From the NCBI RefSeq assembly GCF_015476235.1, contig NZ_CP064338.1:1798001-1862000 (forward strand): DNA of 64,000 nucleotides. Reading direction: 5' to 3'. Below, in pieces: positions 4,175 to 24,638 of the stretch. Position 1 is the first letter of the stretch. Every line of letters starts with the position of its first letter. The notes below the pieces were generated by a model. That model was not told the DNA's origin. It was given only the letters and a program-made list of their open reading frames with translations, and did not search any database. Source of the stretch: Caldimonas thermodepolymerans (GTDB taxonomy: Bacteria > Pseudomonadota > Gammaproteobacteria > Burkholderiales > Burkholderiaceae_C). Position numbers and translations under genes: made by a program.

Positions 4175-4176
4175 GG

Positions 4177-5022: not shown

Positions 5023-5040
5023 ACAATTGAGTGGGAGTAG
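5023..5040 (+). repeat. guaA-like 3'-end motif, copy 1 (possible attachment-site remnant)
   Basis: ACAATTGAGTGGGAGTAG, reading Thr-Ile-Glu-Trp-Glu-stop, the C-terminus of GMP synthase GuaA. The rest of guaA is absent. It lies at the left border of the NUDIX unit. Related motifs are at 7211 and 24621 in the same orientation. Confidence 0.4.
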
Positions 5041-5182
5041 CACGCGGTGGCATGGCAGGGGAGCGGCGACCATGGGCCAACGAGCCGTCTTCCCCCATCG
5101 GGCGCCCGCCAGGGCGCTTTGCCAACGATGCTCGGGAAACCGTCTCAGAGCGATTCCATATGGCATCCACCGATAAGGGCAG

Positions 5183-6916
5183 TCAGCTCAGCGCTTCCTG
5201 CACGGCCTTGATGATTGGTGCGTCGTTCTTGTGGGTCAGGATTTCAGGCAGCCTGTCCGCCGGGATCAGCAGGACGGCCTGGCTTTCCCAGCCCATGTCG
5301 CCGGGGTGGCCGCCGATACGGCGGGCCAGGTAATAGCGGGTGTAGCTCGTTGATCGGGGCACATCCACCAGAAAACGGGTCAGCTGCACCCGAAGACCGG
5401 CTTCTTCGTAGGCTTCCCGGATCGCTGCGGCTTGCAGGCTCGTACCGGGGGTGCAGGTGCCCTTGGGGAAGGTTGCCTCGTAACCGCCATAGGCATTGCT
5501 GGGGGCCACTGCCCAGACACGCCCGTCGTCCTCAACGATGACCACACCGGCTGCGGCTTTCTTGCCTTTGGGAAGGTTGAAGTCGGGCTCTTCAACCGGA
5601 TGTTGCTCAGCCACTCGCTGCCACCCGGCACGGTCGGTTGGCGCATCATCCCAAGAGTCAAAGGGTATCGTTGCCAGTTCTGACGGCATCGGGCCGTCCG
5701 GGATGACGATGGCGATGCTCTGGGGATCCCGCCAGGTCCACAAGGCGGTGGGCGTGCTGGGGTGGGCGAGCTTGACGAGATTACCGTTGTCATCGCGGCG
5801 AGGGTGTACCGGCGGGCCGGGCTGGAAAATTTCTTCCTCGTCCTCGAGTGCGTCGTCTTCCTCCAGTTCTGCGTCCAGGGCCTCCAGCTCGCGCAGCAAT
5901 TTCTCGAAGCTGGACTGCTGACTGTCCTCAACAGGCACTTCGTCGAAATCCTCCGGGTTCTCCTCTGGCTCCAGGCGATTCTCAGCTTCTTCGTCCCCTT
6001 GCATGAAGCGCCAGCGGTTCGACCAAGTGAAGTCACTGAGCGTCACATCCGGAAAGTAAACCGTGTGAGTCCCCAGGATCACACTGGCGGTGAATTCGCG
6101 CAGAGCGCTGATAAACCTGAACAGGGCCTTCAGGTCATAGGGTGGCGGGTCATTCCGCCAGTCGGCGATGATCTTTGTAACTGCCGTCGACAGGCCGGCC
6201 AGGCCTTCGCTGAGGATGCAGTGCAGGTTCTCATCGGCGTACCAGTCCGGGTCCAGCTCCAGAGTCCGGATGATGGCTTTGCCCAATCCCTGCTCGGTGC
6301 GCCAGGCTTCCAGCCCGTGGAAACGCTCGTCCGCGCCGCTGAGCACCGATGCAATGCGTTCGTTGGCGCTCAGCACATCGGAGAAGCTGGTAGGTTCATA
6401 TCCGGGCAGGGCATCCAGCCCGGAATAGTACTTGGGCAGTTCCTTGCAGACGATGCGCCAGAAATAGGGGGCAAGCAGCTCCATGACCACGGACGGAGAA
6501 CCCAGATAGTTGGGTTGCGTCGCTTCCTTCAGGGCAGAGACGAGGCCCGGCTCGTCGGGGCGATGGGCCTCGTCGCTGGCGTAATAGGCCAGCACGTCGA
6601 CCAATGTCTCCCACGCGTCATCGAGGGTGCCGCCATAGTCGGGCCCCAGGTTGATCCTTACCCTGCGCGCAACCCCGCCATCCTCGTCCTCGTCGAATAC
6701 CACCTCGTACCGCTTGATGCCCGTCCAGCTGCGGTGGATATGCAGGATGTTGTCCTCAAAGTAGAGGAACCACTTCTCGTTCTGGTCGGACGGGACGAAC
6801 CCGCGCCGGAGGTTGCGCATGTGCGCGGCGTTGAAATGCAGCTTGATCTTCATGTCCTCATACGAGGCAGGCATCGGCTTGAGGTCTGGCCAATCGCTCT
6901 TGGTGGCGATGTGCAT
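5183..6916 (-). CDS. NUDIX-domain protein with large N-terminal region, putative defence gene
   Basis: 577 residues from the ATG at 6916, which has GGAG eight bases ahead. The C-terminal ~120 residues are a NUDIX hydrolase domain: the box at residues 486-508 reads G-x5-T-x7-REAYEEAGL, so the REx2EExG metal-binding core is intact but the usual first Glu is Thr. The N-terminal ~100 residues (HFNAAHMRNLRRGF, then EKWFLYFEDNILHIHRSWTG) form a separate small domain that I have seen beside ADP-ribose-related enzymes, though I cannot name it securely. The middle has an acidic coiled-coil segment (residues ~350-375). NUDIX enzymes hydrolyse nucleoside diphosphates such as ADP-ribose or NAD. The gene stands alone, but its upstream region resembles those of the two WYL-controlled defence units, so a nucleotide-based defence role is plausible, not shown. 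Confidence 0.75.
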   Translation of the reverse strand: MHIATKSDWPDLKPMPASYEDMKIKLHFNAAHMRNLRRGFVPSDQNEKWFLYFEDNILHIHRSWTGIKRYEVVFDEDEDGGVARRVRINLGPDYGGTLDDAWETLVDVLAYYASDEAHRPDEPGLVSALKEATQPNYLGSPSVVMELLAPYFWRIVCKELPKYYSGLDALPGYEPTSFSDVLSANERIASVLSGADERFHGLEAWRTEQGLGKAIIRTLELDPDWYADENLHCILSEGLAGLSTAVTKIIADWRNDPPPYDLKALFRFISALREFTASVILGTHTVYFPDVTLSDFTWSNRWRFMQGDEEAENRLEPEENPEDFDEVPVEDSQQSSFEKLLRELEALDAELEEDDALEDEEEIFQPGPPVHPRRDDNGNLVKLAHPSTPTALWTWRDPQSIAIVIPDGPMPSELATIPFDSWDDAPTDRAGWQRVAEQHPVEEPDFNLPKGKKAAAGVVIVEDDGRVWAVAPSNAYGGYEATFPKGTCTPGTSLQAAAIREAYEEAGLRVQLTRFLVDVPRSTSYTRYYLARRIGGHPGDMGWESQAVLLIPADRLPEILTHKNDAPIIKAVQEALS

Positions 6917-7067
6917 GGTTGCGGCTCCGTTGCAAAAGGGCTTCACGCCCTCATTGAATCGGCCTGCAGGGCAGTCACAACCGGCAGGCCTTTGGTTCAA
7001 GAGGACAATCCGCGTGCAGGCTTTTCCTGTTCTCGATCATGACCGGGAAGTCTCATGCCGAGGCACG

Positions 7068-7205
7068 GCGGAGAGGAGGGCTGTGGCAGGCGCGGCCATC
7101 GCCGAGAGGGAGAGGGCGGCGGTAAGGTCAGTGGAGTATGGTATTGGGCGTGGTACTTGGCCACTTGGCGTTGTGATGAAATGTAGATTTGTAGGGTTTT
7201 TTAAG
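7068..7205 (-). promoter_or_regulatory. Leader block of the NUDIX unit, shared with the WYL units
   Basis: Part of the 319-base gap upstream of the NUDIX gene. It shares blocks with 10410-10545 and 24478-24610, for example GAGAGGAGGGCTG, GGCCATCGCCG and GAGAGGGCGGCGG, followed at similar spacing by GTCAG and a GTGAT(A/G)A-type stretch. Unlike the other two copies, the ACCAG-TTT-CTGGT palindrome and a WYL gene are missing. Probably a shared promoter-distal leader. Confidence 0.5.
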
Positions 7206-7210
7206 TGCTG

Positions 7211-7231
7211 ACGATCGAGTGGGGGCGATAG
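7211..7231 (+). repeat. guaA-like 3'-end motif, copy 2 (possible attachment-site remnant)
   Basis: ACGATCGAGTGG followed by GGGCGATAG: Thr-Ile-Glu-Trp then two changed codons and a stop. It falls exactly between the leader of the NUDIX unit and the stop codon of the GmrSD gene, which is five bases further on. Confidence 0.4.
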
Positions 7232-7235
7232 CTGA

Positions 7236-9419
7236 TCAATCCGATTCCGCTGGAACATCATCTTCTTCCTCCGCGCCCTCTAGCGACACAACGCGCAGGT
7301 ACTCGGCGCGCACTTCATTTAGTGGCCGGCCCCCGCTTGGATCAAGTCGCCAGAAGTCCCAGCCATTTGTTGGCTTCTGGCGAATGTGCACGGCGGCGCT
7401 AGAAGGGCTTTCAAAAACTTTCCCTTCCACGTCGATTCGCCCGTTCGAAAGGATCCTGCCAGAGCGGCCCCCATACTTTCCGGGTTGGGAATAAAGAACT
7501 TGACCCGGCGCAAGCAGGCCTGCAGCGATCAGGTCGGCAATCTCCACCGTGATGGAAGTGTCTAGCTGCTCGTGCTCGATCTTGACCCTATGATCCGGCG
7601 GGACTGGCCAGATGGCGAGAATAGTATCGAACATCTGCTTCGTGCGTGTGTCGATACCGGCCTCATCCCATTGCTTCGATGCGTACTCCTTCAGCAGTTT
7701 GCTGTTCAGAAGAACCACATCCTTCTCCTGAAGGTGTCTAGCTTTGCCGGCAGCCCCCAACCACGGGCCGTTGGACACCGTGCTGTTCAGCTTCTTCGTC
7801 AGCAGGGTCAGGTTGCCGAGCCGATGGATGTGTGCGTCGCGGTCCGCCTCGGATCCACCGGGTGGCAGCGGCCAGTGTTTGTTCCAGGCCTGAGGCATCA
7901 GGTGTTCGATCGCATAACTCTCACGTCGGATGCGCATGCCGGCTGCCGACACCTGTCCGGGAATCCAGCCGCGCCAATGGTCTTCGATGGCCTCGAGCAC
8001 CATGCGCAGGCGTGCCCTGCTTAGCTTCCGGTAGACGGGCGACGTCTCCAGTTCACGGCGTACCTCTTCGTCGTCGGGCCAATAGGCCACTTCGGACCGC
8101 TGTGAGGAGAAGAACCGCCGTACTGTTTCATCCATCTGATCGATGGGTGCATTGCGGATGACGGAGACAACTTCCGCCATGATCTTGTTGTAGGACTTCG
8201 CCGTTGCGCGGATCAGCATGCGGCGCGTCAGCCAACTCTCGAGTACGTCCAGAGTCGTGTCGATTTGTTTCTGAGGCAGCGGGCCCGACTTATGGTCCAG
8301 CAGCGCGAGCAAAACAGGCTTGATGACCTCGCTTTCCAGCGCCTTGACGCGATAGACAAACAGCCCGACGCGGTCGAGGGGGCCGTCCAGCACCTGGGCC
8401 TTTTCGGTGAACTCCCGATAGATCGTCGCGGCCCGGTGGATCTCTTTCAGGAGGTCGAGCATCGGGTGACCAGACTGGTGGTCGGCGTATTCCTTGAAGC
8501 GGGAGAAGACTTCGCGAGCAACCACTTCTTCACCCGTCCGGGCGACCAGCCAATGGTTCAGGAACACCGATGATCGAGGGATCCTGACGCGGCCGACGTT
8601 GACTTCTTCCTCCCAGAAAGCCGTTTCGAACTGCGCCCAGTACTTGTTGTACGCCTCTTCGACATTGGCTTTTTGCTCATGCAGACGCTGGAAGACGAAA
8701 TTCTTGATCAGGTCGGCTGCAGTGAGGACGGCACCACGCGCATTAAGTGTTTCGAAAATCTCTTGGGCATTCTCCTGTGCAGAGAGATCGATGACAACAA
8801 TCTGCAGAAGCTCGCGAGCACTGCGTTCGATGGCTTCTGCACGCGCAGCGATTTTGTCGGGGCCCTCGGCATGGAGCCAGGCGCGGCACTGCTGTGAGAA
8901 GTACTGGTGAGCCTTGACAATGCGGGAAGCGCGATATTCGAGCTTCTGATAATCGACGGGTGCGGATGCCCCCATCACCTCGTAGAACGCCGGGCGGTCG
9001 CGGTTGGTAGGCCAAACCTTGAAGCGATCTTCCTGGTTGCGACAGAACGCTTCATCGTTGGCGATGAGAAACTTCAGACGCGCGGCCTGCGTTGTGGCGC
9101 CAGCCGTGGCTATTTCGGTGTGGATAGCGTCAAGCAGAAGCTGCAGAGTCGTCAGTCGCTGTTGTCCGTCGATGACTGTGCGCTGCTGAAGATCGCTCGT
9201 GGAGCTGGGAAGTTGTTGCAGGACGATGGCACCGAGGAAATGTGGTGCTCGTGCTGTATTCGGTGACTGCAGCTGGCGGGTAGCAACGCGCACCAGGTCC
9301 TTCCAAAGAGGCTCCCATTGCAGCTCCTCGTTCCAGACGTATGGCCGCTGGAAGAGTGGAATAAGCAGCCGCTGAGGCTGCATGAAGATGGTTTGTGGAG
9401 TTCGGACTTGGGTATCCAT
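7236..9419 (-). CDS. GmrSD-type (DUF262/DUF1524) restriction endonuclease with RAMA-like C-terminus
   Basis: 727 residues. The N-terminal DUF262 (ParB/Srx-like nucleotide-binding) domain shows IPLFQRPYVW at 20-29 and the signature DGQQRLTTL at 84-92. The DUF1524 HNH nuclease domain shows IEHLMPQAW at 504 followed by LGNLTLLTKKLNS. The last ~80 residues (VLYSQPGKYGGRSGRILSNG, then FESPSSAAVHI and GWDFWRL) resemble a RAMA domain, a module linked to restriction enzymes and modified-DNA recognition. Family members such as GmrSD and BrxU use NTP to cut phage DNA carrying modified cytosines. It lies 54 bases downstream of a WYL regulator, probably its repressor or activator. Single-chain fusion of both domains is normal for this family; the RAMA tail is less usual. 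Confidence 0.85.
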   Translation of the reverse strand: MDTQVRTPQTIFMQPQRLLIPLFQRPYVWNEELQWEPLWKDLVRVATRQLQSPNTARAPHFLGAIVLQQLPSSTSDLQQRTVIDGQQRLTTLQLLLDAIHTEIATAGATTQAARLKFLIANDEAFCRNQEDRFKVWPTNRDRPAFYEVMGASAPVDYQKLEYRASRIVKAHQYFSQQCRAWLHAEGPDKIAARAEAIERSARELLQIVVIDLSAQENAQEIFETLNARGAVLTAADLIKNFVFQRLHEQKANVEEAYNKYWAQFETAFWEEEVNVGRVRIPRSSVFLNHWLVARTGEEVVAREVFSRFKEYADHQSGHPMLDLLKEIHRAATIYREFTEKAQVLDGPLDRVGLFVYRVKALESEVIKPVLLALLDHKSGPLPQKQIDTTLDVLESWLTRRMLIRATAKSYNKIMAEVVSVIRNAPIDQMDETVRRFFSSQRSEVAYWPDDEEVRRELETSPVYRKLSRARLRMVLEAIEDHWRGWIPGQVSAAGMRIRRESYAIEHLMPQAWNKHWPLPPGGSEADRDAHIHRLGNLTLLTKKLNSTVSNGPWLGAAGKARHLQEKDVVLLNSKLLKEYASKQWDEAGIDTRTKQMFDTILAIWPVPPDHRVKIEHEQLDTSITVEIADLIAAGLLAPGQVLYSQPGKYGGRSGRILSNGRIDVEGKVFESPSSAAVHIRQKPTNGWDFWRLDPSGGRPLNEVRAEYLRVVSLEGAEEEDDVPAESD

Positions 9420-9473
9420 AGGGATCGGGCTCTAGGAGACGGTGAGTTCGGGATAGGAAGCTTCTTCTGCTCG

Positions 9474-10346
9474 TCAATGTGGAGATGGCGATTGCCCGGT
9501 CACACAGACCACCTCCTTGTTCAGGAGCACGATCTGGTCCGCCACTTTCCGGGTGGACGGGTCAGTGTCCAGCCCGAGACGCTTGAGCGCGTAGTAGAGC
9601 AGGGCCTTGCGGACGGTGATGCTGGCCTTGCCTCCCCGCATCCCATAGTCGAGCGCCACCACCTTCTTCTGCGCGTCGGACAGGCCCGGGTGCGGACCGA
9701 TTTTCAGCGTGACGTGTGTGTGCCAGTCGGCATCCTGGCTGGGGTCCGCGTCACTGGGGCGGCTGTCCCGGATGCCGAGGATGCGCGCCAGTAGGAAGTC
9801 CTTGAAGCAGCCGTCGGTGAAGCAGTACGCCCGGGCATGCCAGCGGAAGCCGTCGTAGGCAATGGCGTGCGGTGCGATCCAGCGCCAGCGTGGGGCCGGG
9901 CTGGAAAGCGACTGGTATTCGATTTCGATGGCCCGTTTGCTGTGAATGGCCTGGAGCACGGTGCGCAGGTGGCCGGCATCGATGCCCCGAGCGGGGTTGC
10001 GCACCGTATCGAAGGCCGGCATCTGGCCGATCCAAGTTTCCTCCTGCGTGACGATGCCGTCGGAGATCGACCGCAGCTGGGACAGGTAGCTGGCCGGGTC
10101 CGGTTTCAGAAACAGGGGCTCGAAGCGGTCGCCCCGGACGTAGGTGCGGGCGCTCTTGTCGTAGCGCATGTTGTCCGGCGCCATGCCGAGGTAGCGGTTC
10201 AGGTCGGTGGATGCCTGGTTGATCGAGATCCCGAAGGCGGCCATCAGGTCGCCGCGGTTGACATGGCCTTCCCAGAAGAGCCGGAACTCGATGAACTCGA
10301 GTCGGCGCTCAATGCCCCATCGAACGCTGCCTTGCGTTGTCCCCAC
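9474..10346 (-). CDS. WYL-domain transcriptional regulator, BrxR/CapW type
   Basis: 290 residues from a GTG start. Residues ~11-75 form a winged helix-turn-helix (RRLEFIEFRLFWEGHVNRGD, then ISINQASTDLNRYLG) highly typical of the BrxR/CapW regulators of BREX and CBASS loci. Residues ~130-200 are the WYL domain with WHARAYC at 169-175, thought to sense a ligand linked to phage attack, and the C-terminus is a WCX-like dimerisation part. The gene is first in a two-gene unit with the GmrSD enzyme. It is almost identical over residues 9-98 to the second WYL protein at 23538-24413 but drifts after residue ~112, so the two should read the same operator but may answer to different ligands. Confidence 0.9.
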   Translation of the reverse strand: MGTTQGSVRWGIERRLEFIEFRLFWEGHVNRGDLMAAFGISINQASTDLNRYLGMAPDNMRYDKSARTYVRGDRFEPLFLKPDPASYLSQLRSISDGIVTQEETWIGQMPAFDTVRNPARGIDAGHLRTVLQAIHSKRAIEIEYQSLSSPAPRWRWIAPHAIAYDGFRWHARAYCFTDGCFKDFLLARILGIRDSRPSDADPSQDADWHTHVTLKIGPHPGLSDAQKKVVALDYGMRGGKASITVRKALLYYALKRLGLDTDPSTRKVADQIVLLNKEVVCVTGQSPSPH

Positions 10347-10388
10347 CCTTGCGCCCCAGTATCATGACCCACATCGGAATTGTATTCG

Positions 10389-10401
10389 ACCAGTTTCTGG
10401 T
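10389..10401. promoter_or_regulatory. Probable WYL-regulator operator
   Basis: Perfect palindrome ACCAG-TTT-CTGGT, 43 bases upstream of the WYL start codon and flanked by a TTTACA / TACAAT-like promoter region on the minus strand. The same 13 bases and ~35 bases around them recur upstream of the second WYL gene. BrxR/CapW proteins bind inverted repeats in their own promoters, so autoregulation is likely. Confidence 0.6.
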
Positions 10402-10409
10402 TGGTTTGT

Positions 10410-10545
10410 AAAGGGAGGATGGGTGCGGCGGGGGCCATCGCTGCGAGGGAGAGGGCGGTGGTGCGGTCAGCGGCTCATGGCATTTGGTGCTTTTCGCTGT
10501 GGTGACGCATTGATCTGCATGCGATTGAAGCTCCCATTGATGAAT
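10410..10545 (-). promoter_or_regulatory. Leader block of the GmrSD unit
   Basis: Conserved with the block at 24478-24610: GGCCATCGC, GAGAGGGCGG, GGTCAGCGGCTCATGG, GCATTGATCT and CCCATTGATG appear in the same order and spacing. The guaA-like motif that closes the other two leader copies is not present here. Confidence 0.5.
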
Positions 10546-10580
10546 GATCCCACGTCCGGCAGAGCCCGGCAGGCACCAGA

Positions 10581-10617
10581 CACACCCTCAGCCCGCGTCA
10601 AAGCGGGCTTGGGTGTG
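10581..10617. terminator. Large hairpin, terminator-like
   Basis: CACACCC-TC-AGCCCGC, loop GTCAAA, GCGGGCT-T-GGGTGTG: two 7-bp stem blocks with a small internal loop. No T-run follows on either strand, so it may be the stump of a terminator of a lost gene or an IS-edge hairpin. Confidence 0.35.
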
Positions 10618-10679
10618 CGTTCGACTTGGCAGGACTGGCAGCCTGGGGTATGGCCAAGCACGAATTTTTCATGGCATCG

Positions 10680-11645
10680 CTACTTGTCGGGTCCCGGATG
10701 ATTCCTAACCTGTTTTGAGAACAGATGCGGATGGGAGCGGCGCCATCGTTTCATGGCCTGGAGGGGCGTGAGGTGTTCTAGAGCCTTCTGGGGCAGGTGC
10801 TCGTTGTACAGCCACACGTAGCGGTGCAGCGTGGTGGCCAGGTCCTGGGCGCTGTTGAAGTGGTGCGAGCGCAGCACCTGCTCAAGCCGCCCGTTGAATC
10901 GCTCGACCATGCCGTTGGTCTGCGGCGACTTCGGCCGGGTCAAGCGATGCTCGATGCCCAGGGCTTCACACAGGGCGTCGAACGCATGCTGCCCCGAGGC
11001 GTCCTTGGCTTTGGAGCCGAACTGGCGGTCGGTGAACTCCTTGCCGTTGTCGGTGAGCAGGGTGTGTACACGAAACGGCGCGGCCTTGTGCAGCGCGTTG
11101 AGGAAGGCTTTGGCTGCCGCCGCCGTCTTGTGGCTCTTGATGGCGATGAACACCCAGCGTGTGGCCCGGTCGATGGCCACGAACACATAGCGCCGGGCCG
11201 TCTCGTCGGCCATCTGCGGCAGGTACTTCACGTCCAGGTGCACATAGCCCGGCTCGTAGGCCTTGAAGGGCTTGGGCGAGCGCGCAGGGACCTCCGGGGT
11301 CGGCAGGCGCGAATGGCCTCGTCGGCGCAGCAGGCGGTCCAGCGCCGAGCGGCTCATGCCAGGTTCGATGAACTCGCGCACCACCGCCAGCAGATCGTCC
11401 AGCGACAGCCGCAGTTGCGTGCGCAGGTAGATTACCAGCTCCTCCTGGGCGGCATTGAGTGTGGTCTGCAACCGGTGCGGGGTGTGGCTGGCGTCATGCA
11501 CGCTGTCGCGCTTGCGCCAGCGCCGGATCGTCTGGCGGCTCACGCCGTATTGGCGAGCCAGCTCGTACTCACTGGCCGAGGACTGTTGGATGGCCGCGCG
11601 CACGGCCGGCGTGGTGGTGGCGTTCTTGTGCAAGGTGATCAGCAT
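10680..11645 (-). CDS. IS481-family transposase
   Basis: 321 residues from the ATG at 11645, which follows GGGGAGGGGT. An N-terminal helix-turn-helix (YELARQYGVSRQTIRRWRKR) precedes an rve integrase core with the DDE triad in YVHLDVKYLPQM (D), LLTDNGKEF (D) and NGMVERFNGRLEQVL (E), and the IS481-type C-terminal NEHLPQKALEHLTPLQAM. The gene looks intact. The stop codon lies at the very edge of the element, as is common in this family. Confidence 0.9.
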   Translation of the reverse strand: MLITLHKNATTTPAVRAAIQQSSASEYELARQYGVSRQTIRRWRKRDSVHDASHTPHRLQTTLNAAQEELVIYLRTQLRLSLDDLLAVVREFIEPGMSRSALDRLLRRRGHSRLPTPEVPARSPKPFKAYEPGYVHLDVKYLPQMADETARRYVFVAIDRATRWVFIAIKSHKTAAAAKAFLNALHKAAPFRVHTLLTDNGKEFTDRQFGSKAKDASGQHAFDALCEALGIEHRLTRPKSPQTNGMVERFNGRLEQVLRSHHFNSAQDLATTLHRYVWLYNEHLPQKALEHLTPLQAMKRWRRSHPHLFSKQVRNHPGPDK

Positions 11646-11688
11646 GCTACCCCTCCCCGGACGGATGATCCTGCCATCACGGCCCGCA
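10685..11688 (-). mobile_element. IS481-family insertion sequence
   Basis: About 1.0 kb around an intact transposase. One end begins TGTCGGGTCCCGGATGATTC; the other, read inward, TGCGGGCCGTGATGGCAGGA, is only loosely complementary, so the right border (11688) is tentative. No clear target duplication; the next IS begins within two bases. Confidence 0.65.
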
Positions 11689-11703
11689 GCGTAAGCTTCC
11701 CCG

Positions 11704-12851: not shown

Positions 12852-12877
12852 AATCCACGGCAGCAGCAGGAGTGTCC

Positions 12878-16533: not shown

Positions 16534-16535
16534 GG

Positions 16536-18011
16536 TCAGAGCTGATTCGTCGCGTGTCGCTGCCTCAAGAACGCTACGTATTCTGGGTCGCGCTCACTCA
16601 CACCCGGCAGAATTTCCAACTGTTCGTTAAGTGTCTTGAGTCGTACCTTGTCCTCGGGGGTGAGTTCCGGCTTGATGCTGATCGCGAGTCGCTCATCGAG
16701 CAGTTTCTGGGTCTCCTTATCGAGACTTGAGGGGAGCCCGAAGAACTCACTGCTGCAGAGAAGATTCGCAACGCCCTGTCCTCTGGGATTGCGGTGCGGG
16801 CGGGAAAAGAGAGACCCCTCTGCGTTTTGCGTGTGCGCCAATAAGACTTGCTCCCGAGTCATACCCGAAATCGTCACGGGGTTGTGGGTCGTCATAAGGA
16901 CCGTGGAGCCAGGTAACTGTTCTGCAGCGAAAGCCTCCGTCAACATGCTGGGATAATCCCAAGACCACTGTGGGTTGAGGTGAGTGTCTGGCTCATCGAG
17001 CAACACCAGATTGTCTTTCTGATTGGTGAGGGTAAGCGCGCCAATGACAGCCACGAGTTGCTTCTCCCCCTCACTGAGCTGATCAAATGGGAATGGCTCC
17101 TCTGCACTTCTTCCTCTTAGGAGAAAGGACACCGACTTCAACATTCCCCTCGCGCGGAGGGTCTCCAATGCCAGATAAACATTCTCGCCAGCCAGTTCTA
17201 ATCGTCGCGCAAACGCGTAGAGCCCTTTTTCCGTAAGCCGGTAGCTACGAATTATTGGTTTGCTAGGGTGGCGGCGCAGAAGCCCGCCTTCCATTGCGCT
17301 TTCGGGTGGAATATCAAAAATGCCGGAAGCATCTTGAGTCGTGGAGGCTGCATCCAGCGCCGCCACGATTCGGCGAATTGCACCTGCAGTGTTCCAAAGC
17401 TTTGGTTCATGCAGTGTAGGGTCGAATCCATAAGGCGAGCGCAGGACGATCGTCACATCTACGACCTCTTCCAGCTTCAGATGATCCAGCAGGCATTTGT
17501 GACCGTGGGCAAAGAGAGCCAGAAGAATTAAGTGCGACTGCTCGTTACTGGATTGCACGAAGAGCGGACGAAAGCGATCGGTCTCCGGCTGTTGGGTTAG
17601 CTTCTGGAAATGTCGGCGATAGCGGGCAACGAGTTGCTGCACGCGACGACACTCTCCGGAGTAATAGACCAAGGTCAGCTCGGGGTAGAATACCTGAGCC
17701 GGGCCATCTCTAAGCCGTCTCGCGAAGTGATCCATTGGCATCCGGTAGCCGTCCACCGTGACTGAGGTTCGGCGCCCTTCGCCATGCAGGACGATTACCC
17801 TGTTCTGTGCTTCAAATTCGAACCTGAAATCAAAGGGTGGCACCTTTTTGAAATAGCAGCCGACCAAAATTTGGATGATCGCTTCAATTAAGTTCGACTT
17901 TCCGCTGCCGTTGCTGCCGATGACGGCGTTGATCAGCGGTGATTGGCTGAACTCGATGTCGCAGGACCTGAGGTTCTTGTAACCCTCGATTCGCAATCGT
18001 CTAAGTTTCAC
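16536..18011 (-). CDS. ptuA: Septu system ATPase PtuA
   Basis: 491 residues from a GTG start that lies inside the end of hsdS (11-base overlap), so it is translationally coupled. It is an SMC/OLD-like AAA ATPase: Walker A GSNGSGKSN at 32-40, ABC signature LSEGEKQ at 312-318, Walker B NLVLLDEPDTHLNP at 334-347 and a switch histidine in MTTHNP near 373. A helical region lies between. PtuA senses infection-linked nucleotide change and controls PtuB. Together with ptuB it makes a complete type I Septu pair embedded behind a restriction-modification operon. Confidence 0.88.
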   Translation of the reverse strand: MKLRRLRIEGYKNLRSCDIEFSQSPLINAVIGSNGSGKSNLIEAIIQILVGCYFKKVPPFDFRFEFEAQNRVIVLHGEGRRTSVTVDGYRMPMDHFARRLRDGPAQVFYPELTLVYYSGECRRVQQLVARYRRHFQKLTQQPETDRFRPLFVQSSNEQSHLILLALFAHGHKCLLDHLKLEEVVDVTIVLRSPYGFDPTLHEPKLWNTAGAIRRIVAALDAASTTQDASGIFDIPPESAMEGGLLRRHPSKPIIRSYRLTEKGLYAFARRLELAGENVYLALETLRARGMLKSVSFLLRGRSAEEPFPFDQLSEGEKQLVAVIGALTLTNQKDNLVLLDEPDTHLNPQWSWDYPSMLTEAFAAEQLPGSTVLMTTHNPVTISGMTREQVLLAHTQNAEGSLFSRPHRNPRGQGVANLLCSSEFFGLPSSLDKETQKLLDERLAISIKPELTPEDKVRLKTLNEQLEILPGVSERDPEYVAFLRQRHATNQL

Positions 18012-19611
18012 CGCTGACTCCTTTGCGAGAAGTGAGTTTGGCGACGAGGGCGGTCAGGAGCTTTTCGGCGGTCGCGCGGGAGGCGGCGAGCTGTTGCTCC
18101 AACTCGTCCACCAGGGCCATCAGTTGCTCCACTTTCGCCACGATCCGGCGCTGCTCGGCGAGGGGTGGGAGGGGGACCCAATACTTTTTGACGTTGCTTG
18201 CTGAGAGGTTTGGCTGCGCCGAGCCATTATCGAATCTATAGATTTGCTCTCGGCCTAGCGGACTGGTCAGAAATCGATAAGCGAAAGCGGGTGTGATTAT
18301 CGGGGAGAGCCGTATGATCACGAGTGAAGATGCCACCGCTCCTTCTTCAAGTTGGGAAATGATCGCTGTCTTTCCAAGCGTCCCACGTAGGCAATAGACC
18401 AAGTCCCCGGGACGAATCTTTCCGCTGCGAAGTGAATCGAACTTCTTCCGTGTGATGTATTGCATCGACTCAAGGGAAAGCGTCCCATCTGGCTTGATGT
18501 GTCCGGCGTTAATCCACGCTACACCTTCTTGAACATACTCTGCCTTGTTCGGGTAGTTTTTGCTTCGATCACCATTGATCAGTTGGCTGATCTGTTCGAG
18601 ATGCACCCATCGCCAGCTTGGAGGTAAACTGAATGGGTGTTCTTGTTCGTCTTTCGCCTTCGTGGCGCGCGATATTGCCGCTACCTCCACCGGTTCGTCA
18701 TTGGGATCTTGAGGGACGAGTTTGCCCTGAACGGCGAGGGTAAGGATGGTTTTGCGGAGGTCGGCGGGCGAGACCTCGTAAGACGGGTGGAAAAGGAATT
18801 GGAGATTTGTGGGAGTGGGCGCCTCGGTGAAGCGGGCGAGCGACGCGCGAACGAGCGCGGCGTGCCGCGTGTCCCGTTCCTGTTGCTGCGCTTCCAGGCG
18901 GTCACACAAGGCCATCAACTCATCCACCTTCGCCACGATCCGCTTTTGCTCGGCGAGCGGAGGGAGAGGAACGGGACAGCTGCGAAATTCACCGTCGTTA
19001 ATTGCGGGGTAAGCCACACCCTTCATGCGCTCAGCTACCTCCACCTCGAATGGTTTGGAACGGAGCCAGAAAAAAAGGAAACGAGAGTCCACAAATGGTC
19101 TCGGATGTAGAACGGCGAATGCCGTGCTAACGATTGCCGGTGGCGAGAACTCACGGTCAATAATCGCAATGTTTTTCAGGTATGGCCTAACCGTCGCGTA
19201 GATAACCGTGCCAAGTCGCACCAGTTTCCGCGCTCGCGACGGCGCGTTTTCCGGTGTCAGAACTTCGAGATCAGACTTGATGATGCCGCACTGGTTATCA
19301 ATGGAGGCAACGTCGATGTAGGTAAACGGTTCGTCGGGCCTCTTTTGTCCACATGCATCTGCAACGTCATCAACACATACCCAGCGCCACTCGTTTGGGA
19401 TATCGAAGGGCGGTCCGGGGTCAGTGCCGTGGATTCGATTGTCGAACTTCTCCAGAAAGACCTGCCAAGCGGGGTCGTTTTGGTCCTCGGGATTGCGTTC
19501 GCTGAGTTGCCCGCGCACAGCGAGTTCCAGCACGAGCGCGCGCATCTTCGCCACCGCGCCTGGCGCGTCGGCGAACAGCTCGAACTTCTCGAAGAACGTT
19601 TCCAGCTTCAT
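18001..19611 (-). CDS. hsdS: Type I restriction-modification specificity subunit HsdS
   Basis: 536 residues with the usual two target-recognition domains, each followed by a conserved helical spacer: LPPLAEQKRIVAKVDELMAL in the middle and LPPLAEQRRIVAKVEQLMAL near the C-terminus. An N-terminal helical segment (MKLETFFEKFELFADAPG) is shared with the EcoEI-like family. The two domains define a bipartite DNA sequence that cannot be read off here. The ATG overlaps the hsdM stop by four bases. The near-identical repeats are where recombination could swap specificity. Confidence 0.92.
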   Translation of the reverse strand: MKLETFFEKFELFADAPGAVAKMRALVLELAVRGQLSERNPEDQNDPAWQVFLEKFDNRIHGTDPGPPFDIPNEWRWVCVDDVADACGQKRPDEPFTYIDVASIDNQCGIIKSDLEVLTPENAPSRARKLVRLGTVIYATVRPYLKNIAIIDREFSPPAIVSTAFAVLHPRPFVDSRFLFFWLRSKPFEVEVAERMKGVAYPAINDGEFRSCPVPLPPLAEQKRIVAKVDELMALCDRLEAQQQERDTRHAALVRASLARFTEAPTPTNLQFLFHPSYEVSPADLRKTILTLAVQGKLVPQDPNDEPVEVAAISRATKAKDEQEHPFSLPPSWRWVHLEQISQLINGDRSKNYPNKAEYVQEGVAWINAGHIKPDGTLSLESMQYITRKKFDSLRSGKIRPGDLVYCLRGTLGKTAIISQLEEGAVASSLVIIRLSPIITPAFAYRFLTSPLGREQIYRFDNGSAQPNLSASNVKKYWVPLPPLAEQRRIVAKVEQLMALVDELEQQLAASRATAEKLLTALVAKLTSRKGVSGET

Positions 19612-21080
19612 TCGACACTCCCGGCGCTGGCGGTGAGGGCAGCGTGCAGTTCCTGTTTCAGCTTTGCACGCGTTTCGGCGATCTGCGCGAGGAGCTTTTC
19701 GTATTCCGGCAGGAGGTGCTCGACGTCGCCGGGACCCTCGTCGGTGCGGTGTGGGTTCTTCAGATCGAGGCTGTAGTTGCCGGCCTTGATCTGGTCGATG
19801 GATACGCGCCAGGCGTATTCGTTTTCAACGCGGGCCTTGAAGCCGTCGGCCTCATCGCCCCACCAGGCTTTCTCGGGCGCAAATTCCTCGATGCGGATGG
19901 GCTTGCTCTTGTTGTAGCTCTTCACGCCCGGCGGATAGGGGTGCTCGTAATACCAGATCTCCTTCGTCGGCGTGCCTTTCGTGAAGAAGAGAAGGTTGGT
20001 CCGGATGCCGGTATAGGGGTTGAAGACGCCATTGGGCAGGCGGACGATGGTGTGCAGGTTGCACTCGGCGAGGAGTGCTTCCTTGATGCGCGTCTTCACG
20101 CCCTCGCCGAAGAGGGTGCCATCGGGTAGGACGATGCCGGCGCGGCCGCCGGTCTTGAGCAGCTTCATGATGAGCACGAGGAAGAGGTCGGCGGTCTCGC
20201 GCGTGCGGAACTCGGCGGGGAAATTGGCTTCGATGCCGTCTTCCTCCATGCCCCCGAAGGGAGGGTTTGTCACGATCACGTCCACGCGATCCTTCGGCCC
20301 CCAGTCGCGCAGCGGACGGGCCAGGGTGTTGTCGTGGCGGACATTGGAGGGAACGTCGATGCCGTGCAGGAGAAGGTTGGTCATGCACAGCACGTGCGGC
20401 AGGTGCTTTTTCTCGATGCCGGAGAAGCACTCCTGAATGGTGCGCTCGTCGGCTTCAGTTCTTGCCTGCTTGCGCAGGTGTTCGATGGCGCACACCAGGA
20501 AGCCGCCGGTGCCACAGGCGGGGTCGAGGATGGTCTCTCCGAGGCGGGGATTGACCTGCTCGACGATAAACTGGGTGACGGCGCGCGGCGTGTAGAACTC
20601 GCCGGCATTGCCCGCGGACTGGAGATCCTTGAGCAGCTTCTCGTAGATGTCGCCGAACATGTGGCGGTCATCGGAGGCATTGAAGTCGATGCCGTTGATC
20701 TTGTTGATCACCTGCCGCATCAATGTGCCGTTCTTCATGTAGTTGTTGGCGTCGGCGAAGGTCGAGCGGATGAGTGCTGACATCGGGTCCGAACCGGGGA
20801 GCGATTCCAGCGCCGGAAGCAGCTCATCATCGACAAAATTCAGAAGCGCATCTCCGGTGATACCTTCCTCGTCAGCCGCCCAGTTGCGCCAGCGGAACTT
20901 CTCGGGGAGGGGCGATTTGTAGTCGTCCTGGAGAAGTTCGAGCTGGGTCTCGCGGTCGTCGAAGATCTTGAGGAAGAACATCCATGCCATTTGCTCGAGC
21001 CGCTGGGCGTCGCCGTAGGTGCCGGCGTCCTTGCGCATGATGTCCTGGATAGATTTGACGAGATTGGAGACGTTGGGCAT
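19608..21080 (-). CDS. hsdM: Type I restriction-modification methyltransferase HsdM
   Basis: 490-residue N6-adenine methyltransferase. The N-terminal helical HsdM_N domain spans ~1-130. EFYTPRAV at 161-168, SAM motif I DPACGTGGF at 186-194 and catalytic motif IV NPPF at 272-275 are all present. It methylates the host sequence chosen by HsdS, protecting it from HsdR. It starts three bases after the hsdR stop and overlaps hsdS by four. No lesion seen, so the system should be able to modify DNA. Confidence 0.95.
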   Translation of the reverse strand: MPNVSNLVKSIQDIMRKDAGTYGDAQRLEQMAWMFFLKIFDDRETQLELLQDDYKSPLPEKFRWRNWAADEEGITGDALLNFVDDELLPALESLPGSDPMSALIRSTFADANNYMKNGTLMRQVINKINGIDFNASDDRHMFGDIYEKLLKDLQSAGNAGEFYTPRAVTQFIVEQVNPRLGETILDPACGTGGFLVCAIEHLRKQARTEADERTIQECFSGIEKKHLPHVLCMTNLLLHGIDVPSNVRHDNTLARPLRDWGPKDRVDVIVTNPPFGGMEEDGIEANFPAEFRTRETADLFLVLIMKLLKTGGRAGIVLPDGTLFGEGVKTRIKEALLAECNLHTIVRLPNGVFNPYTGIRTNLLFFTKGTPTKEIWYYEHPYPPGVKSYNKSKPIRIEEFAPEKAWWGDEADGFKARVENEYAWRVSIDQIKAGNYSLDLKNPHRTDEGPGDVEHLLPEYEKLLAQIAETRAKLKQELHAALTASAGSVE

Positions 21081-21083
21081 GGG

Positions 21084-23462
21084 TCAGGCAGCTTCCTGGT
21101 ACAGAGCGGTTTCGAGTTCGTTGACAGCCTTGAGGTAGGCGGCTTTTCCACCGAACAGATTGATAATTTCAACGGGGGTGCCGAGGGAACGGAACGGATC
21201 CAGCTTGAGGATCTCCAGCGATTCGACGCTCGCAATGCCGGCATCGGCATATTTCTCGAGGAGCGCCTCAAGGACCGCGCGGGCCTTCGCCTCGTACTTG
21301 CCGAAGATGTCGCGCTTCTTCACCCGCGCGGCGCGTTCCTTTCGGGTGAGCGGCGGGCGATCAAAGGCGATGTGGCAAATGAGGTCAAAGGGATCGAGAT
21401 CCTTGCCGACCTGTTCGGCGAGTTCGTCGAGGAAGACGCCCTGCTTGGCCAGTTCCTCCATAATTGGCCGTTTGCGCTCGGCGCTGGTCCACTTGGTCAG
21501 GAACGCGTCGAGCGAAGCGTAGTGCTTCAGGACGGTCTTCCTCGTGTAGTCGGTAAGCGATTCGGTGATAAGCTTGCCGTTTTCATCCAGGTACTGGACT
21601 CGCTCCACAGAGACACTGACCTCGACATCGTCCACGAAGTAGCGTGTCGGAGGCGGCGTAGGTTCGCTGCCTCCAAGCCCCGGTCCGGGATCGGGCGGCA
21701 GGAACCCGGCGTCGGGCGAGTCCTCTCCAGGAGAAAAGGGAGACGGATCGTCAGGAGGGAGCGGAGGATCATCCGGACCGGGTTCGTAGACCTGCACGGG
21801 ATCCCCATCGAAAGCGGGATCGGAAAACAGGGCGGTAGCCCCACGAAAATCCATGATGGTGAAGAAGAACTTGCCGTAGTCTTCGTTGATGCGCGTGCCT
21901 CGGCCGATGATCTGCTTGAACTCGGTCATGGAGCCAATACGCTTGTCGAGCACGATGAGCTGGCAGGTTTGGGCATCCACTCCGGTGCTCATGAGCCGAG
22001 ACGTGCAGGCAATGACGGGATAGGTCGATTCCGGATCGATGAAGTTGTCGAGCTGGGCCTTTCCCTCGTCGTCATCACCGGTGATGCGCATGACGTATTT
22101 GCTGTTGGCGGCAGCAAGATCTGGATTCGCGTTGACCATTGCCTGCCGCATGCGCTCGGCGTGGTCTGTTCGTTCGCAAAAGATGATGGTCTTGGCGAAG
22201 CGGTTGGTGGCGCGCAGGTACTCGGTGACCTTGGCGGCGACCAGTTCGGTGCGCTTTTCGAGGATGAGGTTCCTGTCGTAATCGCTGAGGTTGTATTCGC
22301 GATCCTCGATGAGCTGACCGTATTTGTCCACCTGGCCGAGTGACGGGCGCCAGCCGAGAATGTCTTTGTCGAGTCCGATGCGAATGACCTTGTAGGGAGC
22401 CAGGAAGCCATCGCTAATGCCTTGGCGCAACGAGTAGGTGTAGATCGGTTCGCCAAAGTATTCGATGTTGGAGACGGTTTTCGTTTCTTTCGGCGTGGCA
22501 GTGAGGCCGATCTGGGTCGCGGAAGAGAAGTATTCGAGCACCTGTCGCCACGCCGCATCTTCGTCAGCGCTTCCTCGATGACACTCGTCCACGATGACGA
22601 GGTCGAAGAAGTCGGGCGAGAACTGCTTGTAGATGTTCTTTTCCTCTTCGAATCCGGTGACCGCCTGATAGAGGCTCAAGTAGATTTCGTAAGACTTGTC
22701 GACCGTTCGATTCGTGATCTTGGTCATCGCGTTGCCGAACGGCTTGAAGTCGTTTGTTTTCGTCTGATCGGCGAGAATGTTTCGGTCGACGAGAAAAAGG
22801 ATGCGCTTCTTGAGGCCGGACTTCCACAAGCGCCAGATGATCTGAAAGGCGGTGTAGGTTTTTCCCGTGCCGGTGGCCATCACGAGCAGAATGCGGTTTT
22901 CGCCTCGGGCTATGGCCTCGACAGTGCGATTGATTGCGATGAGCTGGTAATAACGCGGGCTCTTCTTCGAACCGTCGTCGTAGTAGTCCTGTGTGGTGAC
23001 GGCGATTTGCTGCGGCGTAAGGTTCTTGGCAGTGCAGTACCGGGACCAGAGTTCCTCGGGAGATGGAAACTGATCAAGCGGAATCTCCCGAGTTACTGTA
23101 CCCGTGGTAGCGGTCCGATCGTGTTCGAGAAAGGCATCGCCGTTGCTGCTGTAGGCGAAAGGCACATCGAGAATCTCTGCATACTCAAGTGCCTGTTGCA
23201 TGCCGTCGCCAACGGCGTGGTTGTTGTCCTTGGCCTCGATGACGGCGATGGGAAGGTTGGGTTTGTAGTAAAGGATGTAGTCAGCCTTCTTGGCCTCACC
23301 GCGTCGAACGGTCTTGCCGCGCACAATGACGCGACCTTTCGTGAAGTAGACTTCCTCCCGGACTTGAGTCATCAAGTCCCAGCCAGCTCCTCCAGGTCCA
23401 CAGAGCGCCGGAGTAATGAACTTGGAACGGATGTCGGTTTCCGAGAGAGCTTTCTTGTTCAT
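21084..23462 (-). CDS. hsdR: Type I restriction enzyme HsdR (EcoEI-like)
   Basis: 792 residues. The N-terminal PD-(D/E)xK nuclease has D61 and E76-A-K78 (AVIEAK). Two RecA-like helicase domains follow: Walker A ATGTGKT at 196-202, DECH at 292-295, TATPK, and motif VI QIIGRGTRI. A proline-rich linker (~residues 560-610) precedes an EcoEI_R-type C-terminal helical domain. The enzyme translocates DNA with ATP and cuts unmodified DNA far from the site. First structural gene after the WYL regulator, 75 bases away; order R-M-S is typical for EcoEI-like loci. Confidence 0.95.
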   Translation of the reverse strand: MNKKALSETDIRSKFITPALCGPGGAGWDLMTQVREEVYFTKGRVIVRGKTVRRGEAKKADYILYYKPNLPIAVIEAKDNNHAVGDGMQQALEYAEILDVPFAYSSNGDAFLEHDRTATTGTVTREIPLDQFPSPEELWSRYCTAKNLTPQQIAVTTQDYYDDGSKKSPRYYQLIAINRTVEAIARGENRILLVMATGTGKTYTAFQIIWRLWKSGLKKRILFLVDRNILADQTKTNDFKPFGNAMTKITNRTVDKSYEIYLSLYQAVTGFEEEKNIYKQFSPDFFDLVIVDECHRGSADEDAAWRQVLEYFSSATQIGLTATPKETKTVSNIEYFGEPIYTYSLRQGISDGFLAPYKVIRIGLDKDILGWRPSLGQVDKYGQLIEDREYNLSDYDRNLILEKRTELVAAKVTEYLRATNRFAKTIIFCERTDHAERMRQAMVNANPDLAAANSKYVMRITGDDDEGKAQLDNFIDPESTYPVIACTSRLMSTGVDAQTCQLIVLDKRIGSMTEFKQIIGRGTRINEDYGKFFFTIMDFRGATALFSDPAFDGDPVQVYEPGPDDPPLPPDDPSPFSPGEDSPDAGFLPPDPGPGLGGSEPTPPPTRYFVDDVEVSVSVERVQYLDENGKLITESLTDYTRKTVLKHYASLDAFLTKWTSAERKRPIMEELAKQGVFLDELAEQVGKDLDPFDLICHIAFDRPPLTRKERAARVKKRDIFGKYEAKARAVLEALLEKYADAGIASVESLEILKLDPFRSLGTPVEIINLFGGKAAYLKAVNELETALYQEAA

Positions 23463-23537
23463 GCGGCAAAGATCTCTATTGTGAGGAGGTTGAAGGGCTG
23501 ACCATGCAGTGCCACCATGCGATCTACGAGGTCGGCC

Positions 23538-24413
23538 CTACTCACGGGGCATGCCTGCGACGCCTGCCCCCACCACCTCCCGGTTCAGAAGTGCGATCTG
23601 CTGATCCGCCGGGTTCCGGGTGGACGGGTCAATGTCGAGCCCGAGACGCTTGAGCGTGTAGTAGAGCAGCGCCTTGCGGACGGTGACCCTGGCCTTGCCG
23701 TTGCGCAGTCCGTAGTCGAGGGCGATGATCTTCTTCTGCGTGTCGGACAAACCTGGGTGCGGGCCGATATCCAGCGTGATGTGCGTGTGCCAGTCGGCAT
23801 CCTGGCTGTCGTCGATATCGCTGGGGCGGCTGTCCCGGGTGCCGAGGATGCGCGCCAACAGGAAGTCCTTGAAGCAGCCGTCGGTGAAGCAGTATGCCCG
23901 GGCATGCCAGCGGAAGCCGTCGAAGGCGATGGCGTGCGGTGCGATCCAGCGCCAGCGTGGGGCGGGGTTGGAAAGGGACCGGTACTCGACTTCAAGCGCT
24001 TGCCTGGTACGAATCGCTTCGATGACGCGGCGCAACGTGTGGGCATCGATGCCGCGAACGGGGCTGGGGACGATGTCGAAGGCAGGCATCTGGCCGATCC
24101 AGGTTTCCTCCTGCGTGGTGATGCCGTCGGAGATCGACCGCAGCTGGGACAGGTAGCTGGCCGGGTCCGGTTTCAGAAACAGGGGCTCGAAGCGGTCGCC
24201 CCGGACGTAGGTGCGGGCGCTCTTGTCATAGACCATGTTGCCCGGCGCCATGCCGAGGTAGCGGTTCAGGTCGGTGGATGCCTGGTTGATCGAGATCCCG
24301 AAGGCGGCCATTAGGTCGCCGCGGTTGACATGGCCTTCCCAGAACAGCCGGAACTCGATGAACTCGAGTCGGCGCTCGATGCCCCACCGAACGCGACGTT
24401 GCGCTGCCCCCAC
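23538..24413 (-). CDS. WYL-domain transcriptional regulator, BrxR/CapW type (second copy)
   Basis: 291 residues, GTG start. Winged helix-turn-helix, WYL domain (FRWHARAYCFTDGCF) and WCX-like C-terminus as in the first copy. Residues 9-98 differ from that copy at only about two or three positions, whereas residues 112-145 (for example RRVIEAIRTRQALEVEYRSL) and the tail differ at many. Shared promoter, palindrome and DNA-binding domain point to one common operator. It precedes hsdR and probably controls the whole hsd-ptu operon, as BrxR does for BREX. Whether it represses or activates cannot be told from sequence. Confidence 0.9.
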   Translation of the reverse strand: MGAAQRRVRWGIERRLEFIEFRLFWEGHVNRGDLMAAFGISINQASTDLNRYLGMAPGNMVYDKSARTYVRGDRFEPLFLKPDPASYLSQLRSISDGITTQEETWIGQMPAFDIVPSPVRGIDAHTLRRVIEAIRTRQALEVEYRSLSNPAPRWRWIAPHAIAFDGFRWHARAYCFTDGCFKDFLLARILGTRDSRPSDIDDSQDADWHTHITLDIGPHPGLSDTQKKIIALDYGLRNGKARVTVRKALLYYTLKRLGLDIDPSTRNPADQQIALLNREVVGAGVAGMPRE

Positions 24414-24455
24414 CCTTGCACCCCAGTATCATGACCCACATCGGAATTGTATTCG

Positions 24456-24468
24456 ACCAGTTTCTGGT
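24456..24468. promoter_or_regulatory. Probable WYL-regulator operator
   Basis: ACCAG-TTT-CTGGT, identical to the site at 10389-10401, at the same distance (43 bases) from the WYL start. TTTACA lies just upstream and TACAATT just downstream on the minus strand. Confidence 0.6.
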
Positions 24469-24477
24469 TGGTTTGTA

Positions 24478-24610
24478 AAGAGAGGAGGGCTGCGGGGGGT
24501 GGGCCATCGCCGCGAAGGAGAGGGCGGCGGCGCAGTCAGCGGCTCATGGTATTTTTCATGGCATTTGGTCCTTTCCGCCGTGATAACACATTGATCTATA
24601 TGAGATTGCA
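24478..24610 (-). promoter_or_regulatory. Leader block of the hsd-ptu unit
   Basis: Counterpart of the blocks at 10410-10545 and 7068-7205. The stretch from 24414 to 24699 holds no gene: operator region, this leader, the guaA-like motif and ~60 bases of unassigned sequence. Confidence 0.5.
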
Positions 24611-24620
24611 GTTCCCATTG

Positions 24621-24638
24621 ATGTTCGAGTGGGAGTGA
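24621..24638 (+). repeat. guaA-like 3'-end motif, copy 3 (possible attachment-site remnant)
   Basis: ATGTTCGAGTGGGAGTGA, reading Met-Phe-Glu-Trp-Glu-stop. TCGAGTGGG is shared with copy 2 and GAGTGGGAGT with copy 1. It marks the right end of the defence island. Confidence 0.45.

Follow-up and report, generated by a model that had tools for sequence, protein, structure and literature searches.

Candidate mobilizable defense cassettes in a tandem array of guaA-associated elements of Caldimonas thermodepolymerans

We analyzed a 64,000-nucleotide stretch of the Caldimonas thermodepolymerans genome (the window), positions 1798001-1862000 of a single 3.86 Mb contig. It contains defense operons headed by two WYL-domain regulator genes, WYL1 and WYL2. 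The region makes up the guaA-distal part of a tandem array in which at least four elements (E1 to E4) are targeted to the 3' end of guaA. Jointly with this, the units are best read as cis-mobilizable defense cassettes that depend on the integrases of neighboring or incoming guaA elements, a reading that we consider better than an even bet. Most units have a common right end, made up of a guaA core, an arm block, an operator, and a CapW-type gene, before a changing cargo. Units of this kind recur at guaA in other genera, their cargo varies, and one cargo has spread horizontally. The arm block is similar to that of phage attachment sites, and the regulators are homologous to known defense regulators.

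Cores and elements of the array

The only guaA match in the genome ends at position 1787358 on the plus strand, 10.6 kb left of the window. The gene is intact. An intact guaA with the same motif nearby was what the original prediction had proposed to look for. The last 18 bases of the gene (ACGATTGAGTGGGAGTGA, genome positions 1787341-1787358) were used as the query in the surrounding 102 kb. Four core copies with at most 4 mismatches were retrieved, every one on the plus strand. They were guaA itself (0 mismatches) and the copies at window positions 5023, 7211, and 24621 (3 mismatches each), which are the three positions predicted. Mononucleotide shuffles of the 102 kb gave an expectation of 0.03 copies at 3 or fewer mismatches. 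A search of the whole genome with a close variant of the motif returned only guaA, 7211, and 24621, with none on the opposite strand and none for a reversed control; the copy at 5023 is too distant from that variant to be recovered by it. The codon reading predicted for the motif, TIEWE-stop, holds at 5023. It does not hold at 7211 (TIEWGR-stop) or 24621 (MFEWE-stop).

The three motifs are copies of the guaA 3' end, and the region is thus a tandem array of guaA islands. As in a guaA island, there is an intact guaA 3' end at the start and a direct repeat at the end. The cores and a left-end sequence at 10543-10680 split the region into E1 (guaA to 5023), E2 (to 7211), E3 (to 10543), and E4 (to 24621). 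E2 has a core on both sides. The core that E3 and E4 would have in common, at 10543, is lost; their outer cores are present. The original prediction of units (border motif, leader, WYL gene, cargo) stacked step by step is supported by this layout. No tRNA genes were found in the window, and tRNA genes were therefore rejected as attachment sites. The right flank of the window was also set against sequence downstream of guaA (up to 1.5 kb) from 15 relatives and matched nothing, so that no empty site came to light. The sole match in that comparison was between the post-guaA stretch of one relative and the E1 integrase.

The features of the array are as follows (window positions).

1-5022, plus strand: right part of E1 (the element starts 10.6 kb left of the window, at guaA)
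5023-5040, plus strand: guaA-type core at the E1/E2 junction, from the motif search
5183-6916, minus strand: E2 gene with a C-terminal NUDIX domain; the same gene is present in Tepidimonas cassettes
6917-7069, minus strand: NUDIX promoter region, homologous to Tepidimonas and not common with the WYL leaders
7070-7210, no strand assigned: E2 right-arm-like block with one repeat, ATGGTATT (7138-7145)
7211-7228, plus strand: guaA-type core at the E2/E3 junction, from the motif search
7236-9419, minus strand: GmrSD-family type IV restriction enzyme with a RAMA domain, the E3 cargo
9474-10346, minus strand: WYL1, CapW/BrxR-family regulator
10389-10401, no strand assigned: palindromic operator candidate of WYL1, ACCAGAAACTGGT
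10410-10542, no strand assigned: E3 right-arm-like block; one CATGGCATT repeat remains (10476-10484), and the guaA core that followed is lost
10543-10680, plus strand: E4 left end, homologous to the stretch from guaA to an integrase remnant in locus L137
10680-14700, no strand assigned: transposase-like frames at 10680-11720 (rve domain, family search), 11704-12909, and 13285-14682 (the last two by reading only)
15739-18011, minus strand: PtuB and PtuA (Septu-like)
18001-23462, minus strand: HsdS, HsdM, and HsdR, type I restriction-modification (RM)
23538-24413, minus strand: WYL2, CapW/BrxR-family regulator
24456-24468, no strand assigned: palindromic operator candidate of WYL2, ACCAGAAACTGGT
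24480-24620, no strand assigned: E4 right-arm-like block with the paired repeat CATGGTATTTTTCATGGCATT (24545-24565)
24621-24638, plus strand: guaA-type core at the right end of the array, from the motif search

The right end of E1 is taken to be the motif at 5023. E1 encodes a tyrosine integrase frame with an arm-binding domain that starts 84 bases past guaA (PF00589, E 3e-26). It also encodes AlpA-like regulators, a primase/helicase, and a terminase-like protein. Close to its right end it contains TGACGGTA/TACCGTCA arm-like repeats (at about 4772, 4793, 4826, and 4932). TGACGGTA occurs 5 times in the left 402 bp of E1, 4 times in the right 422 bp, and not at all in an 890 bp control. These repeats resemble the integrase sites (GTGACGGTAT) annotated in the record of phage epsilon15. 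The paired repeat of the cassettes was not found in the E1 right end. The E1 integrase had been a candidate for mobilizing the cassettes, and its different arm repeats weaken that role. The original prediction had placed any mobilizing enzyme elsewhere or in trans; an integrase does lie just outside the window beside guaA, and its repeats do not match those of the cassettes. E1 as a whole (L002 7359-18388 and window 1-5022) has the look of a phage satellite or of a prophage remnant located at guaA. Two insertion-sequence copies, 98-100% alike, lie in E1 (1644-2222) and E4 (13252-13835). Their transposase is presumably of the ISL3 type. A piece at 24700-24739 resembles the left end of the same insertion sequence (75%).

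E2 contains the NUDIX gene. No PADLOC model matched this gene and there is no WYL gene in the unit, so it is not counted as a defense gene. Three defense units had been predicted; E3 and E4 are such units and E2 is left aside. The E2 leader resembles the WYL2 leader over 75 bases, ending at 7070. From 7069 inwards it matches, at 91% identity, the promoter that this NUDIX gene has in Tepidimonas charontis. T. charontis and the window also have in common about 100 bases on the left of the gene. E2 can be read as a NUDIX, cargo, WYL cassette from which the whole stretch between NUDIX promoter and arm has been lost.

The genes of E3, in left-to-right order, are GmrSD and WYL1, and those of E4 are PtuBA, HsdS, HsdM, HsdR, and WYL2, every one on the minus strand. 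The GmrSD stop codon begins at 7236, which is 7 bases beyond the end of the 18-base motif and not 5 as first given. E4 contains gene sets for type I RM (hsdRMS) and Septu (ptuAB), identified from the genes alone. Its left end is homologous to the stretch that directly follows guaA in a Lysobacteraceae metagenome-assembled genome (MAG; locus L137), ahead of an integrase remnant; the first part of this end is also homologous to post-guaA stretches of P. taiwanensis, T. hydrothermalis, and an Alcaligenaceae MAG. This left end runs into a transposase frame where the E4 integrase would be expected. A search at E 1e-30 found no integrase in E2, E3, or E4. Genes that by reading resemble a VapBC-type toxin-antitoxin pair follow guaA in P. 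taiwanensis and T. aquatica, and the start of one follows it in T. hydrothermalis (L138 340-1016 and the reverse complements of L140 and L142).

Attachment-arm-like block and candidate operator in the leaders

The leader, judged by its sequence, is in two parts. An operator block lies by the WYL gene and an arm block lies by the guaA core. The shared upstream blocks of the original prediction proved real. They form one repeat family at 7075-7148, 10414-10487, and 24483-24556 (73% and 65% to the first), and the window leaders match leaders in other genomes with E-values to 6e-93. The leaders of the WYL units are related as predicted. The left unit has the motif-proximal half only, and the leader at 10410-10545 has lost its core. 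The arm block is the only part of the leader common to all three units, including the NUDIX unit without a WYL gene.

By alignment and repeat spacing, the part of the leader next to the guaA motif is similar to the right arm found in attachment sites of epsilon15-type phages. The integrase remnant of a Lysobacteraceae MAG was used as a query and retrieved 45 loci in viral contigs. In 20 of the 21 loci examined, a guaA core lies about 400 bases upstream of the integrase match; the exception (L198) has only 72 bases upstream of the match. Identity to the epsilon15 integrase is 53-54% for the integrases of two such contigs, 48% for the Lysobacteraceae remnant, and 58% for a T. charontis integrase fragment.

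Twelve left arms of such viral contigs together contain the repeat ATGG[CT]ATT 24 times (0.32 expected). Stretches of 300 bases preceding the core, 11 in all, contain it 7 times (0.24 expected); one of the 11, that of L208, is host guaA. Ten cassette right ends contain 15 occurrences (0.07 expected). In 6 of these ten ends the paired 21-mer CATGGTATTTTTCATGGYATY lies 82-83 bases before GAGTGGGA, with 0.0 of 10 expected. The other 4 contain a single copy only. The ten right ends were chosen since the block could be aligned in them; five other close loci contained no pair and no core, with one single repeat among them. Among 15 correctly anchored integrase-bearing viral contigs, the pair is at 82-83 in 5, at 113 in 7, and absent in 3. 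These 15 were kept from 20, and L208, L215, L216, L217, and L223 were left out as wrongly anchored. The pair of epsilon15 itself is at 113. The E4 pair is 82 bases from its core, and E2 and E3 contain one copy each, E3 without a core. The right end of the integrase element of T. charontis contains one copy at 82.

WYL1 matched CapW (7tb6) with E 1.2e-65 over residues 6-273, which covers the helix-turn-helix, WYL, and C-terminal parts. It matched BrxR (7t8k) with E 1.7e-42. Residues R32, S42, Q45, and S47 of CapW are reported as mutated or in contact with DNA (PMC9122588). They align with R31, S41, Q44, and S46 of WYL1, and all four are conserved. WYL2 is 82% identical to WYL1. WYL1 is closer to units in other genera, at up to 94% identity and with other cargo. 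The stretch 300-450 bases past the start of the WYL genes has two forms (about 73-76% and 86-97% to WYL1). These forms do not track the remainder of the gene, a sign of possible recombination within it.

The palindrome ACCAGAAACTGGT starts 55 bases before the WYL start codon in both window copies. Among 82 upstream regions it is exact in 9 and has one mismatch in 6 more, 2 of them at -155 (0.0 and 0.6 expected from shuffles). The variant CAGNNNHTGG is present at -72 to -30 in 48 of 68 more distant WYL relatives and in 0 of 68 control stretches. These relatives are nearly all Alphaproteobacteria, judged by titles. Neither a guaA core nor the arm repeat was found within 300 bases in any of the 68. 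The WYL repressor probably acts on its defense operon through the palindrome 55 bp upstream.

The original prediction had treated leader and regulator as one portable dock for defense cargo. The two parts occur separately, the arm half without a WYL gene in E2 and the operator half without a guaA site in the 48 distant relatives. A portable defense regulator is moreover already published for BrxR and CapW.

Close relatives and their cargo

Genome contigs were scanned with the WYL alignment and the best 80 loci were kept, so the counts below are no measure of prevalence. Twelve of these loci, in 11 genomes, were at 79-94% identity. The genomes were from Tepidimonas, Thermomonas, Pseudomonas, Pseudoxanthomonas, and Arenimonas, plus MAGs. 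Five of the 11 carry the cassette next to a whole guaA on a single contig. One contig ends in the last 17 guaA codons adjoining the cassette and is probably mis-binned. In the other 5, the guaA end is 0.2-3.7 kb from a contig end, which fits a link to the cassette and is no proof of one.

With the two window units there are 14 close WYL units. Nine contain the arm block and at least one repeat, and L051 contains one repeat before its contig ends. Border motifs at the ends of homologous units were part of the original prediction, and this held in part. Beside the leader, the motif was found with at most 2 mismatches in 5 of the 12 relatives and in degenerate form in 2 more. It was not found in the other 5 (L044, L050, L051, L052, and L076); L044 and L051 have only 192 and 159 bases upstream.

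Several cassettes could be read from guaA to the right core, and no integrase was seen in them at E 1e-30. The P. thermotolerans cassette (138 to 10942) contains cargo and a WYL gene only. The T. fonticaldi cassette (142 to 12541) contains the NUDIX gene, cargo, and a WYL gene. The mis-binned contig (41 to 13439) contains NUDIX, cargo, WYL, a Fic-like gene, and a run of N. The T. charontis contig parallels the window order. It begins with part of an epsilon15-type integrase (78% to the query). After this come about 32 kb of other genes and then a core, NUDIX, cargo, WYL, arm, and core. The core before its NUDIX gene ends GAGTGGGAGTAG, as at window 5023. The guaA of T. charontis is on another contig, so a link of its cassette to guaA is presumed. 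A Fic-domain gene is present in some copies only of a type III RM-like cargo operon (L044 7273-8385; L042 and L043 appear similar by their starts).

Contig DYIB01000081.1 (L139, L255) is binned as Uliginosibacterium. Its guaA tail is Tepidimonas-like and unlike the guaA on another contig of that genome. The contig is therefore probably mis-binned, and the Uliginosibacterium epsilon15-type integrase was not used as evidence.

The leader and WYL gene are not fixed to one cargo. The first cargo gene was compared in 12 units (L044 and L076 left out), and seven kinds were distinguished, among them three pairs of distant relatives. GmrSD was found once, a DrmD-like gene 5 times, and an SNF2 helicase with an HKD+Snf2 model match once. 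Two kinds each were found of HsdM (2 and 1) and HsdR (1 and 1). In five Tepidimonas/Pseudomonas/Thermomonas pairs, the DrmD-like genes share 95.9-96.4% DNA identity, whereas the guaA genes of the pairs are 75-80% identical (the four Uliginosibacterium guaA values were left out). This indicates horizontal spread of one cargo. The three genera belong to different orders. Between the two Tepidimonas genomes compared, the cargo gene is 95.9% identical and guaA is 90% identical.

A WYL family search matched 57 of 299 genomes at E 1e-20, the genome of the window included, and nothing above 47% identity was found except the copies in the window itself. Within the order that includes T. hydrothermalis, 3 of 397 genomes matched at E 1e-110, and all three were among the known close relatives. 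The close WYL family thus looks rare. The guaA core (4 mismatches of 21) was absent at 22 viral-contig WYL loci and 69 genome WYL loci (L053-L121), which confines the guaA link to the close relatives.

Proposed mechanism, alternatives, and known systems

E1, adjacent to guaA, carries its own integrase, and E2 to E4 are cassettes in which no integrase was found. Each cassette ends, away from guaA, in an arm-like block and then a guaA core, which E3 has lost. The gene of a putative CapW/BrxR-type repressor lies just on the inner side of that block in E3 and E4 and heads the defense operon. From these features we infer integrase binding, mobilization, repression, and induction as follows. A tyrosine integrase with matching arms, from a neighboring or incoming guaA element, would join the guaA left site with the right end of a cassette. 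One or several cassettes would thereby be excised, moved, and reintegrated at guaA, which would allow accretion and mobilization in cis and possibly in trans. The WYL protein would hold the operon repressed until infection or damage.

The cassettes may further have kept the right half-site of a temperate phage together with a CapW-type switch. Incoming epsilon15-type phage or island integrases might then pick up, stack, and move them at guaA and so spread anti-phage defense. Cargo might be swapped behind an end that stays constant and comprises the arm, the operator, and the half of the repressor that binds DNA. We offer this extension tentatively and regard it as rather doubtful.

Several points weigh against mobilizable cassettes. 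Their mobility is deduced from sequence, and no excision or transfer was observed. No epsilon15-type integrase was found in this genome in the search at E 1e-30; the only match was that of E1 (46% to the query and 42% to that of epsilon15). E1 carries other end repeats than the cassettes and hence may be unable to act on them. The E3 core is lost, and the leader at 10410-10545 is 9 bases short relative to L048, whose own core is 1 base short. Cores are degenerate in P. thermotolerans, T. fonticaldi, and L048. Four of the 14 close units (L044, L050, L052, and L076) have neither arm repeat nor core upstream. The ATGG[CT]ATT repeat was found in 0 of 3 cassette left ends. Left ends are kept over more than 100 bases in four genomes, so loss of the left end is not general. 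The arm sites were called by similarity, and related sequences make the counts non-independent. The Lysobacteraceae MAG contains an integrase remnant and a WYL unit in one element with no internal core, which also suits plain loss of an integrase.

Such loss is the basis of the strongest alternative, which we lean against and still take as a serious possibility. The units would be decayed ordinary guaA islands, with their own integrase on the left and a WYL-controlled defense operon on the right. The integrases would have been lost by deletion or insertion-sequence insertion, and nothing would be mobile now. Transfer between species would have preceded the loss or gone by homologous recombination or transduction. 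L137 contains an integrase remnant, type I RM, and WYL in one element. The E4 left end matches the part of L137 before the remnant and then has a transposase in place of the integrase. The lost E3 core and the 4 of 14 close units without recognizable arm or core also fit decay. Defense genes are reported to move by lateral transduction (PMC12829572). However, the order NUDIX, cargo, WYL without an intervening integrase recurs in T. fonticaldi and T. charontis, and the P. thermotolerans cassette without an integrase has the same cargo at about 96% DNA identity.

The shared leader block could instead be mainly regulatory, as a promoter or leader RNA, with the position of the guaA motif a by-product of common descent. 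We consider this improbable. The block does lie upstream of the operons on the same strand, and the operator block of the leader is regulatory by homology. Yet the common block also precedes the unrelated NUDIX gene, its arm repeat sits at the distance from the core found in some phage-type contigs, and the repeat is absent upstream of the 68 more distant WYL relatives. Local duplication of the WYL units with accidental guaA motifs would fit the 82% identity of WYL1 and WYL2 but has next to no likelihood, as WYL1 is nearer to units of other genera with other cargo, the motif copies exceed the chance expectation, and relatives with the same ends and other cargo were found elsewhere.

The reading as cis-mobilizable cassettes gives a testable model. 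A short conserved end would mark a possible mobile defense cassette and name the likely enzyme family. The model predicts where new cassettes should lie, downstream of guaA and inside the right arm. It also tells apart two contents of the leader, the operator of the regulator and the attachment arm of the element. Mobilization of chromosomal defense genes has been called poorly understood, and lateral transduction is reported as one way (PMC12829572, 2026).

The array shares features with several known systems. Islands at the GMP-synthase gene were reportedly surveyed in 2012. Defense island 13 of Stenotrophomonas maltophilia is flanked by guaA and is called the most diverse in content (PMC11680222). 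It is like the present array in its diverse defense systems at guaA. It differs in that its content is described by flanking and mobile genes; the main text of that paper does not mention WYL, and no attachment arms were found described for the island.

BrxR/CapW WYL repressors are reported to be associated with many kinds of defense system (PMC9122601, PMC9122588). WYL1 and WYL2 are clear homologues that head defense operons, and each is preceded by a palindrome whose position is fixed. The main text of PMC9122601 mentions neither guaA nor an integrase, whereas here the gene adjoins an attachment arm.

Phages epsilon15, phiV10, and vB_EcoP_ZX5 are reported to integrate in the guaA 3' end with the core attgagtgggaatgatt (PMC9782041). 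The likeness extends to this core in guaA, a P4-like tyrosine integrase, and the epsilon15 pair CATGGCATTTTTCATGGTACT before the core. E2 to E4 differ in that no phage genes and no integrase were seen in them, and the pair spacing is 82-83, which some IMG/VR contigs also have, and not the 113 of epsilon15.

The ssrA islands of Dehalococcoides are an example of cis-mobilizable elements (CIMEs) and accretion. Like those of the array, their units are bounded by copies of the end of the target gene, some lack an integrase, and these lie in tandem with integrase units (PMC3146451). They use a serine recombinase and another target, whereas the enzyme here would be a tyrosine integrase and the defense cargo lies behind one kind of regulator. 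The combination was not found described among the open-licence papers listed, judged by titles and the starts of abstracts. The guaA islands, CapW/BrxR regulators, and CIMEs are each known, and their combination appears to be new.

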